Shown here: positions 10,683-34,797 of the stretch, one piece after another | Position numbering within the stretch: the first letter of the stretch is position 1 | How the letters are laid out: every line of letters begins with the position of its first letter | Origin: Citrus sinensis | Lineage: Eukaryota; Streptophyta; Magnoliopsida; Sapindales; Rutaceae | NCBI RefSeq assembly: GCF_022201045.2 | Contig: NC_068556.1 | Location: forward strand, 21,247,501 to 21,311,500 | Length of the DNA stretch: 64,000 bases | Direction of reading: 5' to 3' | The notes under the pieces: model-generated | Seen by the model: only the letters and a program-made list of their open reading frames with translations | Databases searched by the model: none | What the model was told of the DNA's origin: nothing | Program-made: the position numbers and the translations under genes

Positions 10683-13000
10683 GGAGCGAGGAAAAGCTGG
10701 GAAAAGTGGAGGGTTGGGTGTGGGGTGGGCCAGGCCCACTGTGACCACCACATGGGTAGAGTCACATAAAGTAAGACATTTCCAGACATATTATTTTAAA
10801 ATACGCGAGAAATAAAAATATTTTATTGATTGTATTGTCACTGTACAGACTGCAGGAGAAGTGAAGATGATGGACACTGACGAACAGCACTGAGTTGATC
10901 AGGCATGCCGCATGCGTGTATCCCGTTGTTTGGTAAAAGCAAGATCTAAAAGAGCATGTCTGCCCGTATATTGGCGGAGCTTCTGTTACAGCAAATAACT
11001 GGAAAGCTGACTACAAAATGAGAACTTATGACGTGGCATGCTTGGGCTGTTATTCAAGAATATTATCTGTAGTAGAAGAATTAAATTGATTGTATGCATG
11101 TGTTTCTTGCTCGGTTCATCGCATGATTTCTTCTAATGATAACACATCATGTATACGTGATATTAAAATCTCCTTGCCACGTGAGAGACGTTCAAACTTC
11201 GACGTATACTTTTGTCGTCGAATTAAATACCACCCAGAACTTAAATACGCAACTCTGGGTTCCTATTTTGTCAACGTACTTTAATTGCTTTTTAGCATTT
11301 ACATCCCTAAAAATGTTTTGAGACAATAATATTGGGGACCATCGGGGAGGTTGGGCCTATGACACGTAAATATTAAAGAACCCCACTTTAATGTGTTGAC
11401 ATTTGGAGGTTGAGGGAGATTAGAATTCAATCATACAAGTTTGTTAATAGTTAATAGTTTCTATATTGGATTGAGAAGTTTGAATCAAGCATCCAACAAT
11501 TTTCAAAATAGGCAATGATTCCATGCATGTATAATTTGACTCGCTAACAAAGGTTTAGTTGAAACTAAGCCTCAAAAACTGAAATCCTTTTAAAGTGTGG
11601 TGCTTGGGTCCACGTTAGGCCATAATTATTGAGCGGAGCTGAATGTGAGATTAAAGGGGAGTGATTTGCTTATGTTTAAAAACAAGACATAAATAGGCAA
11701 ATAGATGGTGCCAAATTGGCAGCGTTCATGCAACAGGAGGCAAACAAAAGCAACCATAAAATGAAAGCTAAGGGGGGCCAACTCACGATGGGTCTTGTTG
11801 AGGTTTTAAATGAACCTGGAACAGATGACACGAGCGAGAGTGTGGCGTCAACTGATTAACAGTCAATAATATTAGGGTATGATAATATCCAAAATAAGAA
11901 TAACTGGGACTTGTAATTGTAAGTTGTTGGGCCAGAGAAACTTGACAAGATGTGCGACAAACGTAGGCAGACATCTGATCGTGCTCAAGTTGGTCATGTA
12001 AATACGTATCACGTATGCTTGTTGGTGATCGGGATGCTTACCTCGTTCACGGTAGCGGCCGACACTTTTGTTATTACTAAGCTAGCAAGGTAATCAAGCT
12101 CTACTAATTCAAAGATTCCATATTTGACTTGCAAAACTACTCAAGAGTGCAGAGAACAAGGGTCACTTCCAGCGTCCTCTCCATTGAAAAATCTCAAATT
12201 TTCTAAATTTTTCGTTACTCAACCCCCGAATTGTGTCGACAACAGAAACTTGAGTGTAAAGTAAAAACTAAGAGGACGCACCAACCAACATTGAATTTTG
12301 CGTGTGTGTGTCCATATATATCGCAGACTTTCACTAACATAAAAACATATTTAAACATAATCAGGCTGGATAATTATTACATAAAAACAAGACCTAAAGT
12401 CATATTACTAGGAAAAAGAAAATCCAAAATTCTGCTCATGAACCCATGTCCACGATGGTAAATTTCCCAGCAACCAAAGGCTGATCAGTGTGATTGTGTC
12501 AAATCCCAACAGTAAGGTATCCAAAGTTCTCACACTGTGTAAAGTTATTAACTTTAATCCCCGCAGACAATGAGTGAGAAAAATAGGAGCAGACAAGCTT
12601 CCCACAGGGCATCTTCAGGCTTGGATTGCCACGAGAACCAAGACCAACAGTAGAACAATAAAATATAAAAAGACCGTAAAATATTTAAAGAAGATAAGAT
12701 GGGCATGCGACATGCAAAGTGAACTGGATCACATGAAGATAGAGGACGTGTCCGCAAAAATTCTTTCCGTACTGCTGAGCCTGGTTAAAGAAACAAACAT
12801 CTCACATTCGCAACATGCGATATTGATCATCATTAGTATTTCTGGCCCGCGCCAGAAGCCTCCGCACAATATAAGGGCAGAAACAGGTCTCAACGGTGTT
12901 CAATTCAAGGTATTAATACTATTTTCAACAACCCAGTGAGTCAGTAGCATCTCCTATACCTTTTCCACTTGTTTGTAACATTAGCCTCTTATAATTATAT

Positions 13001-29772: not shown

Positions 29773-30069
29773 TTAAAGGGGGTGATTATGCAATATAGTT
29801 GAATTATAAGTACGCAAATAAAATATCGTACTCCTGGAAAATGCACAAAATGCCTCACGCGTCCATTCGGATAAAATCATCAAAATTATAATCTCTTGTA
29901 ACTTTCTGTCTTCTGAGGGTGAGAGCAGCAGCGTTGAAGCAGACAGCGGATGTTTCTTAGAGTGCAGTTTGGATTTTGCTGATGGATAAACTTGGTTATT
30001 AGGTACAAGCAAGACAAGAACCAGAACAAGAATGGCTATAACAATTGTAGCAGCAAAGACGGATCCCAT
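29773..30069 (-). CDS. small hypothetical protein with N-terminal hydrophobic segment
   Basis: An ATG-initiated ORF of 98 residues at 30069, in a good leader context (AAACACAAATGGG). Residues 4-23 (VFAATIVIAILVLVLVLLVP) form a strong signal anchor or signal peptide, followed by a Lys/Ser-rich stretch. That is the shape of a small secreted peptide precursor, but I recognise no conserved peptide at its C-terminus. In the +1 frame the late part would instead read DYNFDDFIRMDA then stop, so the true C-terminus is uncertain (a frameshift or an unseen intron). It could also be a chance ORF. Confidence 0.35.
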   Translation of the reverse strand: MGSVFAATIVIAILVLVLVLLVPNNQVYPSAKSKLHSKKHPLSASTLLLSPSEDRKLQEIIILMILSEWTREAFCAFSRSTIFYLRTYNSTILHNHPL

Positions 30070-30485
30070 TTGTGTTTCGAGTGTCGCGAAGAAAATTCTG
30101 AAAGCTAACTCTGAGTGTAAGTGATGAAAACTTTTCCTGAATCTTTTGGTTTTTGTTTTTTCTTTTTTTTTTTTTAATTTCCTGCTGTCTGCTTATTTCA
30201 TATGTTCATATGCATAACTGCTTGTTGCGTTGCCTCGTTTCCAAGTTCCTTGAGTTCTCCTCAACATTAGCCTCTCTTGCCTTATTTTATTCAGATATTT
30301 GCTCGTTACGATGAGTAACACTGTACTCATGTAGCTTGGGACACAAAGAAAAATGCTAAATGCCAAAAGAAAGAAGGAAAGACTATAGAAACGACAGCAT
30401 GTTTTATGTCCCTTTTTTTTGTTTTACTTTTGGCCACTAGTAGCATTAAAATAATAGTAAAGAAGTCAAATTTAAGCCTTATCCG

Positions 30486-32755
30486 TGCTAAAAAAATAGA
30501 GTAGAGGTTTAGCTAGCTAAAGAAATGAGAGAACCACGAGAGAAACGGCAGCAGTTTCGCTTTCCATTTCTTTAACTAATTTAAATAATAAAAAAATAAA
30601 TAATAATAAAGAAATGGAATAACGATATAATAAAATACAAAGCTTATCCTCTAACCAAGTTTCCTCATCCACTCCTCTCTCTCCTCACGGCAAAGCACTA
30701 TCATCATTCACGGCGAGTGCTCTTTCTGTCTCTCCTCCTCCTCACGGTCTCTCCTACTCACGGAAAGCACCCTTTCCCTCTCTCCTCCTCATAGAAAAGC
30801 AGCACTGTTTATGTCTCTCTCCTCTATTACGGGCTCACGGCAAAGCAGCACTCTCCCTCTCTCTCGGCTCTCTTGGCAAACATTAAGTAAGCAAAATCGT
30901 GCTTTTTTTCAACTTGTTATTTTTCTTTTACTTTCCTTGCATTTTCTCGGCAAACAATAAATAAATGTCATAAACAATGCAAGATATGATAAACTTCCGT
31001 GATTTTGTGTAATAAGCTTCTGGAATTTATTTTTTATTTTTTTGACATTTCTTTTGCAGGTTCGAAACTAATTGAAAAACAATTGATTGGTGTTCTAATT
31101 TTTGTTTTGACATTTCTGTGAAAGATTTAGTTTTTGGTAGGTGTGGGCGTGTTGGATTTATATAATATCATTCCAACTCAGGCCCTTAACATCCATTAGT
31201 ATTCTTATCAGATCCGGAATGCAAAGTGTTGGGTGAGTGTCATTCATCTGCACTGCAACTTTTTCAGGAAAATTTTCCCAATTCACAGGCTCCCCTAATC
31301 TCCCTTCATACCGTACAATGATATCTTGAACGGAGGCAGAGCATAGAGTATATTGTTGCTTCAACCGAAGAGTCTTTCTTGCTATGTATTCATCCCCAGG
31401 ATATAATACATAGCAAATCTAAACACAACAAAAGTTTTTCAGTCCACATAGCATACTCGTACCAGTACAAATGTGGAAAAAGAAGCACATGGATTCATTT
31501 ATTATCCATACTTTCTCAACATTTGTGATAGCTGCATATGCTTTAGCATGATCTCCTGTATTGAAAGCATGTAAATCAAAGTCTTCTGCAGCAACTTTGG
31601 TAGACCAAAGGCGAAGGTTTAATGTGGTTTTAGTTTTATATCCGGGAATTGGGACATCATAGGCAACATCCATCACATTTTCTCCTCCAACCTATTTTTT
31701 ACGTCCATCTGGCCCTAGAATGACTTCACCATAGAATTCCACGGGATATGACACATCATTTGTAACAATTTCTCAAGGACTGCCAATCTGCAAAGAGATA
31801 CTTCAATTATTGGACATATTGCCAATCTGCTACAAATAAATTAACTAGTTCTACTAATAATAAGAATTATAAACCCAACCTCGAGCCAACTTTCTGCAAC
31901 TTCTTCCTGACCATCTTTAGTGATGAGTTGTTTAAACAAGCCATATTTGTATCTAAGTCCATATCCCATGCTGGGTAATTAAGTGTAGCCAAAGAGTCCA
32001 AAAAGCAGGAAGCAAGCCTTTCTAAGCCTCCATTTCCAAGTGCAGCATCCAGTTCCTTCAGTAATCAAATGACAAGTTTAGAAGAAAATCCCCTAAACTC
32101 ACAAAGTAAGACGTCAACTTCTCTGATTGTATGATCAATTGACAGCTATAGATTCACAAATGCACTTGTAATTAATTCTGAAAATTATTTTTGGAGCAGA
32201 GTATAGCAAAATTATCTGACCTGCCTAGCAACATCTTCTAAATTGTGACCCAACTTTCTTAAAGCCTCTGTCCATGAGACCCCGACAACTCCAAATTACC
32301 TATTGCATTTAATAGTGCTCTACCCTGCAACAATATCTTACCATAATGAATAACATTAGCTGGAAAGAATGCAAATCAAGAGTGCTGCTTTGCCTTGAGC
32401 CCCTGACAGAGGAGAGAGACGAAAACAATGCTGTTTTGCCGTGAGGAGGAGAGACAGAGGAGAGACGGAAAGGGTGTTTTGCCGTGAGTAGGAGAGACCG
32501 TGAGGAGGAGGAGAGACGGAAAGAGTGCTTTGCCGTGAACGAGAATGAGTGCTTTGCGGTGAGGAGAGAGGAGTGGATGAGGAAGCTTGGCTAGAGGATA
32601 AGCTTTGGATTTCATTTTGTCGTTATCCCATTTCTTTAGTCATTTTTTTTTATTGTTTAAATTAGCTAGAGAAATGGGAAGCGTAACGGCAGCAACTGCT
32701 GCTGTTTCTCTCGTGCTTCTCTCATTTCTCTAACTCTTTAGCATTTTCCAAAAAA
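30486..32755. mobile_element. inner Pack-type element with ~390-bp inverted repeats
   Basis: Left arm about 30486-30885, right arm about 32370-32755, inverted. Matching blocks include GAAATGAGAGAACCACGAGA / GAAATGAGAGAAGCACGAGA, AAGCTTATCCTCTA-CCAAG, TTCCTCATCCACTCCTCTCT, and several CTCACGGCAAAGCAC units. That last phrase recurs about six times in each arm, a subterminal-repeat layout. Between the arms lie ~1.5 kb of captured alpha-glucan phosphorylase exons and introns. The arms share the terminal GAAAATGCTAAA motif with the outer element, so the two are probably one family. Confidence 0.7.
31158..32324 (-). pseudogene. captured, decayed alpha-glucan phosphorylase fragment
   Basis: Minus-strand pieces of a plant alpha-glucan (starch) phosphorylase in native order, separated by intron-like gaps: GRALLNAIGNLEL, then [56 protein letters not shown] through ITNVEKVWIINE; and ICYVLYPGDEYIARKTLRLK through VQMNDTHPTLCIPDLIRILM. 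This is an internal part of a ~900-residue enzyme and lacks the catalytic C-terminal, pyridoxal-phosphate-binding region. It is broken: a frameshift after AIGNLELS, a one-base loss near NYPAWG, TGA in place of the Trp of IGSPW, and TAG in place of Trp after DGRKK. Introns are kept, so the copy came from genomic DNA. Confidence 0.85.
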
Positions 32756-32792
32756 ATATAACCCGAGCGCAAGATCTGCATCACATTCACTT

Positions 32793-33402
32793 TGTTAAAG
32801 AAAAAAAAAAAAGCGGCCATTTAGTGACGAACAAAGCCGCCAGTGGCACCAGCCAACAACGACCTTGTTGACAACAGAGGAAATTGTTGTTGGTTAATTG
32901 ATAAGTTTCCCTTTCCCATTAGATTTAAATAAATTAGTTTATGGATTTTTTTATTTATTTAAATTGTTAGATTTTTTTTTTTTTAAATTTAAATTGCTAG
33001 AAACTGAATGGATTAAACTTTTACTAGACAAAAATTTTGGAAACTTGTGTAATTACTTATTCTTAATACAAATGTTAATTATTTTGTAGGAATTGAGAAT
33101 TTAGAAAATGAGCATACATTTGAAGGGTTACAAGAAATAGGAGCTAACAATGTGTTTGAAAGTGTGCAACCGAAAAAATATGAGTTAACGTTTGGGATGT
33201 TATTTGATAGTTATAAGGAAATCTTCGTGTTTTACAAAGACTACAGTAAAGAAGAGAGGTTTCCCGTGAAGGTGCAAACTAGTAAGAAAGGGAGCAATGA
33301 CTATCAAGGGGATAAGTCGTCGTTGGTGTGATTGTTGTTGGCCGGTGCTACCGGCGGCTCCATTCATCACAAAATGGCCTTTTCTTTTCTTTTTTACTTA
33401 AC
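32793..33402. mobile_element. ~610-bp inverted-repeat element carrying a FAR1-like fragment
   Basis: The left end (TTGTTAAAG, A-tract, GCGGCCATTTAGTGACGAAC, then AAAGCCGCCAGTGGCACCAG) matches the reverse complement of the right end (TTAGTTAAGTA, A/G-tract, GGCCATTTTGTGATGAATGG, then AGCCGCCGGTAGCACCGG). Both continue into CCAACAAC. Arms are about 70 bp. The interior holds an intron-like AT-rich stretch and an exon-like piece. The element lies inside the outer element at 30332-33640, to the right of the inner one. Confidence 0.65.
33090..33330 (+). pseudogene. fragment resembling a FAR1-type DNA-binding domain
   Basis: After an AG acceptor (ATTTTGTAG) an open frame reads IENLENEHTFEGLQEIGANN, then KKYELTFGMLFDSYKEIFVF, YKDYSKEERFPVKVQTSKKG, and stops at a TGA at about 33330. 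The GM-x-FDS-x-x-E-x-x-x-FY-x-x-Y-x-x-x-x-x-FPVKV pattern resembles the start of the FAR1/FHY3 (WRKY-GCM1-like) DNA-binding domain. The metal-binding Cys/His part is absent. There is no ATG and no downstream exon, so it is a captured exon or remnant rather than a gene. Confidence 0.65.
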
Positions 33403-33640
33403 TAATGCACAAATCTCGCTTTTGGGTGGGGGGGGGGGGTTGCTATGAGAGGATAATGTTTTTTAGTATTGATAAGGCTCAAATTTCTTGTTTTTTGGCC
33501 TTTTTTAATTATTTTGCTGCTACTAATAGCCAAAAGTAAGAGAGAGAAGGTGGCGTGAAACGGCAGCCATGCTGCTGTTTTTGTCGTCCTTCTCTATTTA
33601 TTTTGGCCATTTAGCATTTTCCTTTGTATCCCAGCTATAT

Positions 33641-34797
33641 GAGCAATAATGTGCTAGCTAGAAGAATTGCGGTTTCGCATGTGGAGGAAAGCTTTATTTA
33701 CTTTTAGATAAGGATATCTAGGTAGCATCTTCTTTTTCATGGTTGCCTATAAGAGCAGACTAATTCTGAAACTGTTGATATCTCTCGTTTTAGGTTTTTC
33801 ATTTAGTTGATTATCTGGTAATGGGTAATATGGTGTTTCTTGGCATGTAGTAACCCATAAGTTCTCTCGTATGTGCCACTAGCTCCCATCTAAGAGTCGT
33901 CTAGACTATCTGTGGCAAGTCCTTATCTCCAGGAGGCAGGATTAGTTATGTACATGACAATCACATGTGGAGAAAAAGTCTTTGCTCCTTGTTTCTCCAA
34001 AAATATTTCATCTTAAATGAGGATATAGAATTAAAGTACTAACCAATTATTAATCGGCACCTTATTATTGCATTGATTAATATAGATGTGTCCCCTTGAT
34101 ATTAAACTATGTAATTATAGACATTGTTAAACATAATATTAAATTTGTGAAGAACCAAAAAGAAATGAAGATGGCTATTTCAGCAAAGGATTGCTAGGCG
34201 AATAGCTAATGCCATCTGTGCATTTTCAAAGCTAGTGGCCAGAACAGAGAGAATCTCTAATTGTTGTAGCAGGCCAAGCAATACCATTAAGCATAGTACT
34301 AGAGAATCTATCAGACGGAAGACTTGAAACAGAGATGTCAATAATTGTTAGAAGTAGTCTACATAAACTACAAAGACGAAAATGCTGACTGATGCGATTA
34401 TTTAACAGGGAATGAAGCTCTCCTTGTTAACAAATGCAATCCGTCTGGGATACTATAATAGGGCAAATGGCTAATCTGAAATCAGTCCAGCTTTAATTTT
34501 AGCCTTCAATGAACTTTTTCCAGATCTATATTAGGTAGGAATGAACAGTAAAAATAAGAACAAGAATGTTCAAATAGAAAAGAACAACACAAAATAAGTT
34601 AACCGTTGAGCGAGAGATGCATTATGAGGACCATTGTGGCCTGTGAATACTGAGATTTAGCTTAGAATCCTGGCTGTTGTGACCGAATTTATGTTTTGAT
34701 CTTTATCATTCAATAATTTAACCTAGTTCATTTGCTTTTTTTCCAAAACTACATAATTGCATTTTTTGTTTCAGCATCTTTATGTACTTCCTTCCTA
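33641..34797. other. intergenic, upstream of PSB27-H2
   Basis: No convincing coding sequence. A first exon of the downstream gene could lie here (see that entry). One candidate is the short frame from the ATG at 34412, but nothing supports it beyond position. Confidence 0.45.

Follow-up and report, generated by a model that had tools for sequence, protein, structure and literature searches.

Two nested MULE elements in Citrus sinensis, the inner one a Pack-MULE that holds a phosphorylase gene fragment

A complex of inverted repeats in Citrus sinensis, lying within the 64,000-nucleotide stretch of DNA analysed here (the window), consists of two nested elements. They are very probably two related MULEs, of which the outer is an older deletion derivative and the inner a younger Pack-MULE that inserted in the left terminal repeat of the other (Table 1). 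A preliminary description made from the sequence alone had recognized three inverted-repeat elements and fragments of host-type genes in two of them. The alignments and genome searches below reduce the elements to two and the captures to a single one, of a phosphorylase gene, and they bear out the insertion of one element into a relative.

Table 1. Features of the nest, in positions of the window
Feature	Positions	Strand	Remarks
Outer element, left flank	30326..30347	+	Inverted-similar to right flank 33623-33643; no 9-bp direct repeat
Outer element, distal left terminal inverted repeat, GGAA-type end	30348..30498	+	Contains left AAAAAAATA copy
9-bp target duplication AAAAAAATA, left copy	30490..30498	+	
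Inner Pack-MULE, left terminal region, GAGT-type end, TC-rich subterminal repeats	30499..31159	+	
Captured alpha-glucan phosphorylase fragment, four exons and introns	31168..32333	-	
Inner Pack-MULE, right terminal inverted repeat, GGAA-type end	32378..32749	-	
9-bp target duplication AAAAAAATA, right copy	32750..32758	+	
Outer element, proximal left terminal inverted repeat ("small" left arm)	32759..32860	+	Aligned part 32761-32860
Outer interior remnant: leader and coding start of FAR1-type MULE transposase	32877..33294	+	Peptide match 33062-33298
Outer element, uninterrupted right terminal inverted repeat, GGAA-type end	33334..33622	-	
Outer element, right flank	33623..33643	+	Inverted-similar to left flank

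Results

Arms and number of elements

A repeat search of the window reports 21 pairs in inverted orientation in the interval 29.8-34.2 kb. All three arm pairs of the preliminary description are real, in that they align above shuffled sequence (100 single-base shuffles in each case). The inner arms are identical in 297 of 363 columns (82%) and score 395, with a shuffle maximum of 28. For the outer comparisons, gaps and mismatches were penalized less severely than for the inner one. Aligned by themselves, the outer pair scores 166 and the small pair 86, against shuffle maxima of 49 and 54, respectively. However, the outer left arm (30316-30495) and the small left arm (32761-32860) are consecutive parts of the uninterrupted right arm (33334-33656). 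When the inner element is left out, left and right arms align as one stretch, with 220 of 336 columns matching and a score of 225 versus 57 for shuffled sequence. The outer and small arms are therefore the halves of one split terminal inverted repeat, and this colinearity contradicts a three-element reading.

The genome searched comprises 299.7 Mb in 11 contigs. A sister copy of the outer arm that lacks the insertion is found at C8:27323983-27324240, where it spans positions 42-306 of the arm. Sister copies of the inner family and of the outer family each occur without the other, so the nest is not one fixed unit, a point on which the preliminary description had made its reading depend.

The inner element

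The inner element (30499-32749) is 2251 bp long. Its first bases are GAGTAG, and its right end reads GCATTTTCC, the complement of GGAAAATGC. The left region continues into sequence shared with sister elements, as far as 31136 in three of the four compared and to 31159 in one. An exact 9-bp AAAAAAATA is present on both sides of the element; the word is nearly all A and occurs at 17 of 63,992 window positions, and this low complexity makes the duplication less telling than a mixed 9-mer would be. The recurring subterminal unit noticed earlier in the inner arms is confirmed by CTCACGGCAAAGCAC, for which all seven matches at up to three mismatches fall within those arms, with 0.77 expected in the window. 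The end motif said to be common to inner and outer arms fares less evenly. GAAAATGCTAAA is present at three ends, two exact and one with a single mismatch, and the end motifs are related, but the 12-mer taken alone does not reach significance, with four window matches (one of them distant, at 11291) against 1.43 expected and nine of 100 shuffles reaching four.

A tblastn search of the inner element at 1e-3, using one family transposase peptide of 591 aa as query, gave no transposase match. The element thus combines MULE-family terminal inverted repeats and a 9-bp duplication with a fragment of a non-transposon gene and no transposase, and it is a Pack-MULE, as had been suspected. A hAT identity was set aside because the duplications are 9 bp long and the large relatives carry MULE transposase sequence.

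The phosphorylase fragment

The cargo of the inner element is a broken phosphorylase piece of ~1.17 kb on the minus strand, introns included, and comes from a type of gene that acts in starch metabolism. PF00343 was found in all three phosphorylase frames tested (E = 7.3e-29, 1e-11, and 1.7e-11), and the best solved structures are those of alpha-1,4 glucan phosphorylase. Structure 8r48, which is labelled chloroplastic/amyloplastic, matches with E = 4.7e-21 and 6.3e-39, ahead of the cytosolic-labelled 4bqe (E = 2.4e-12 and 1.4e-26), which suggests that the piece is of the plastid type. Inspection by eye reveals four exons, two frameshifts, and one stop. The introns, whose borders were also set by eye, lie at places matching those of a gene at C6:25912009-25913650 and themselves hardly align with it. 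Because introns are kept, the capture would have been at the level of DNA.

Within the span searched (31150-32360), homology to phosphorylase ends at 31168 and 32333. In a DNA search, the piece matches only itself and the C6 gene, the latter in four blocks of 71-82%. A peptide search with one 86-aa peptide recovered the C6 gene (77%) and, less closely related, a place on C8 (54% and 68%). No close donor gene was found in the genome by either search. The G+C content of the piece is 38.0%, compared with 35.8% for the window.

Comparison of the piece with the C6 gene gave a dS of 1.58 and a dN of 0.13 over three in-frame pieces that cover 514 bases on the gene side. These are exon 4 and the portions of exons 3 and 2 that lie downstream of the stop and of the frameshift, respectively, with exon 1 and the rest left out; one piece, whose two versions differ in length by two bases, was compared as far as the shorter one extends. 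The ratio indicates that the two sequences would have diverged mostly as working genes, which points to a diverged phosphorylase paralog as the probable donor, one that may be lost from the genome.

The interior of the outer element

The outer element measures 1015 bp once the inner element and a single copy of the duplication are subtracted. Over ~418 bases, the piece in its interior shares 82% identity with C6:14288257-14288667, and it matches at least 39 other genome places at 72-85% (40 of 105 candidates were scored). In the coding part, 50 of 79 residues (63%) agree with residues 13-91 of an open frame at C5:153958-155730 that contains a FAR1 domain at residues 69-153 (PF03101), a MULE domain at 274-368 (PF10551), and a SWIM domain at 559-586. 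The outer-cargo peptide alone gives no Pfam match to FAR1, since the piece ends early in that domain. What had been taken for a second captured gene piece is the N terminus of a FAR1-type MULE transposase and no host capture. Capture of a host FAR1 gene is rejected, as the relative compared has the MULE transposase domain in the same open frame.

An element of 5639 bp at C6:14283435-14289073 has outer-type ends, and its 9-bp repeat, AACTAAATA, is exact. Transposase sequence is spread over several of its frames; this relative is broken. Given the transposase N terminus inside it and this C6 relative with transposase, the outer element of ~1 kb reads as the product of an internal deletion in an element that had a FAR1/MULE/SWIM transposase, its interior being a remnant of the transposase gene of the family.

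Relatives of the inner element and their cargoes

A search of the genome with the left arm produced 31 matches, the window's own two arms included. Two large members of the inner family were recovered, at C5:4489297-4495105 (arms matching in 581 of 693 columns) and C7:14995197-15001066 (636 of 782). Both contain transposase-like stretches, in more than one frame and at 54-75% to the reference peptide, so that a decayed FAR1-type MULE transposase lies between their arms; PF10551 was found at C5:4490995. The frames are interrupted, and the left side of these members has no recognized end. As to the full-length copy with transposase that the preliminary description proposed to look for, the three large relatives examined all carry transposase sequence, the C6 element being broken and the C5 and C7 members decayed. 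Long open MULE frames are present elsewhere in the genome.

Other members of the inner family carry pieces of two further gene types, in agreement with the proposal of a gene-capturing family. An FBD/F-box-type LRR piece lies inside C6:12441878-12444212 and C5:36745042-36747487, and a third element, C3:8659907-8663363, contains an 88% copy of it; an open relative of 437 aa is found at C7:9511987 (90%). The start of a mannose-1-phosphate guanylyltransferase gene is carried by C5:3216834-3217853, with 94% identity to C6:14922762 and 83% to C4:485665. The frames of ten sister stretches were inspected (two stretches incomplete at one edge), and seven frames from six of them were sent to Pfam. Matches above the curated cut-off were obtained for C6:12441878, C5:36745042 (one of two frames), and C5:3216834, and none for C5:15977167, C1:15497938, and C3:45047588. 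Two outer-family elements, C5:15977167-15978350 and C9:8625313-8626647, have interior frames that appear similar by eye, the C5 frame having 97 aa and no Pfam match; this interior is possibly another captured piece.

Pairing of the ends

Allowing one mismatch, the end motifs of the inner family have 38 and 40 matches in the genome versus 5 and 3 for the reversed patterns. These 78 matches include six inward pairs within 10 kb, from five elements, each combining a GAGT with a GGAA end. The same pairing is seen in each of the six outer-family elements resolved, five by motif search and C6:14283435 by eye, as its right end GAGTGCTACTA is outside the motif pattern. Thus, every one of the 11 sister elements that were resolved has one GAGT and one GGAA end, and so has the window's inner element. 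Thirteen pairs entered the end search, of which eight were resolved by motif search; C1:19647, C6:17155, C8:2140, and C4:2475 were left out, and C8:24810062 was left out of the end comparison. The 9-bp flanks of the eight elements scored agree at 9, 9, 8, 8, 7, 7, 6, and 5 positions; those of C6:14283435, which is not among the eight, are exact. By eye, end type has no consistent link with the direction of the transposase, which starts on the GAGT side in the C6 element and on the GGAA side in C3:45047588 and C3:8877473.

The left and right ends of the outer element (30348 and 33622) are both of the GGAA type, which sets it apart from the sister elements resolved. A target duplication is exact at the inner element and absent at the outer borders, where there is no 9-bp direct repeat and the flanks GGACACAAA and TTTGTATCC are inverted, not direct. 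Their inverted similarity extends over ~22 bp up to the ends, with a local score of 27 that was reached by 22 of 20,000 random pairs of 60-mers from the window. A longer terminal repeat behind these flanks was considered and rejected, as in the searches made the matches of other copies start at or inside GGAA or a few bases away and not in the flank proper. A genome search with the left flank found only its own place; it also missed the inverted right flank and is thus insensitive.

Ranked by identity, the outer left arm is nearest to GGAA-type arms, and all six GAGT-type arms are the lowest of 18. For the outer right arm, the two types are mixed in the ranking. In a tree of the arms, the GAGT and GGAA labels form no clades, and the window's two outer arms are not supported sisters; both are nearest by path to C8:27324728. 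The ends of the outer element would be accounted for if one end had been duplicated in inverted orientation along with its flank, or if two elements had been joined.

Discussion

The colinear arms, the exact duplication, the identity of both cargoes, and the relatives with transposase are observed directly, and the history that we consider very probable builds on them. The outer element would have kept its terminal repeats and the first part of its transposase gene after an internal deletion. The 2251-bp Pack-MULE would later have inserted into the outer left terminal repeat, thereby making the 9-bp AAAAAAATA; to call the outer element the older one in a wider sense goes beyond the nesting order itself and is presumptive. 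The phosphorylase DNA was probably captured by template switching during gap repair, and the Pack-MULE presumably moved with a transposase supplied in trans by a relative. Judged by their sequences, neither element would be able to move by itself.

A nest of three separate elements of an uncharacterized capturing family, two of them with captured host genes, would account for the arms that the repeat search gives at all three levels, and MULE-derived FAR1-type host genes do exist according to PMC8599713. It is nevertheless very improbable, because the outer and small arms form a single colinear arm and because the FAR1-type piece, with its many other genomic places, belongs with a frame that has a MULE domain. 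Equally improbable is a phosphorylase piece that adjoins by chance, as a segmental duplicate or a retrocopy, with no capture. Its single-copy status, the DNA search finding only the piece and the C6 gene, would suit such an origin, but the piece is enclosed by the arms of an element whose flanking repeat is exact, sister elements carry other gene pieces in the same position, and the retained intron positions argue against a retrocopy.

The ends of the outer element admit a more serious proposal, which is compatible with the history of two related MULEs and to which we give somewhat less than an even chance. Its left end would be an inverted duplicate of the right end together with ~22-33 bp of host flank, made by aberrant repair, so that a normal left end and a target duplication would both be missing. 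The two GGAA-type ends, the ranking of the left arm, the flanks that are inverted-similar right up to the ends with no direct repeat, and the other copies that stop short of the flank are all consistent with this. On the other hand, the similarity of the flanks is short, the ranking of the right arm does not separate the end types, and two arms that are not supported sisters yet lie nearest to the same C8 element fit a join of two elements as well.

Taken alone, the nest is an ordinary outcome of MULE activity, and events like it are well known. The literature describes Pack-MULEs, nested MULEs, and FAR1-type MULEs alike. The inner element resembles plant Pack-MULEs in its MULE terminal repeats, 9-bp duplication, and non-transposase gene fragment, and its family resembles them in multiplying captures by transposition, the LRR piece being present in three elements. 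It is not different in kind; it sits inside a relative, and the close donor gene was not found in the searches made. Nested insertions are reported for 36% and 41% of candidate coding MULEs in maize and rice, respectively (PMC3903597); in the present nest, a Pack-MULE from a related family is what inserted, and it lies within a terminal repeat. A model in which genes are captured through gap filling or template switching has been published (PMC8277862).

CitMule, a Jittery-type, FAR1-type MULE of citrus, is described in PMC4334395 as having short degenerate terminal repeats and no long ones. The present family is like it in its FAR1, MULE, and SWIM domains, its A/T-rich 9-bp target duplications, and a TC-rich stretch near one end. 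In contrast to CitMule as described there, the large inner-family members have arms of 693 and 782 aligned columns. The likeness to the Jittery/CitMule clade is one of domain content only. No earlier description of the present family was found in the titles and abstract openings searched, a body of literature with subscription journals mostly outside it.

The unusual points are the highly diverged phosphorylase piece and the outer element, which has the same end type twice, short inverted flanks, and no target duplication. As a tentative and rather doubtful joint proposal, the inner element would keep a piece of an ancient phosphorylase paralog that is now lost, and the family would need two different ends, GAGT and GGAA, with the outer element showing the outcome when both are the same. 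If the lost-paralog reading is true, the transposon is a fossil archive of a missing gene; the phosphorylase piece offers a concrete example where captured DNA may outlive its donor. With ends that are paired but different, it would be easy to test which requirements the transposase has at either one. In this one genome, a MULE family with a FAR1-type transposase and long, repeat-rich ends has taken up pieces of three gene types.

Four of the eight open frames of the window that were sent to Pfam gave a match, Psb27 and Frigida among them. A minus-strand open frame at 29776-30192, which has a hydrophobic start and no Pfam match, lies just left of the nest. Since this frame adjoins it, the nest may sit upstream of a gene.
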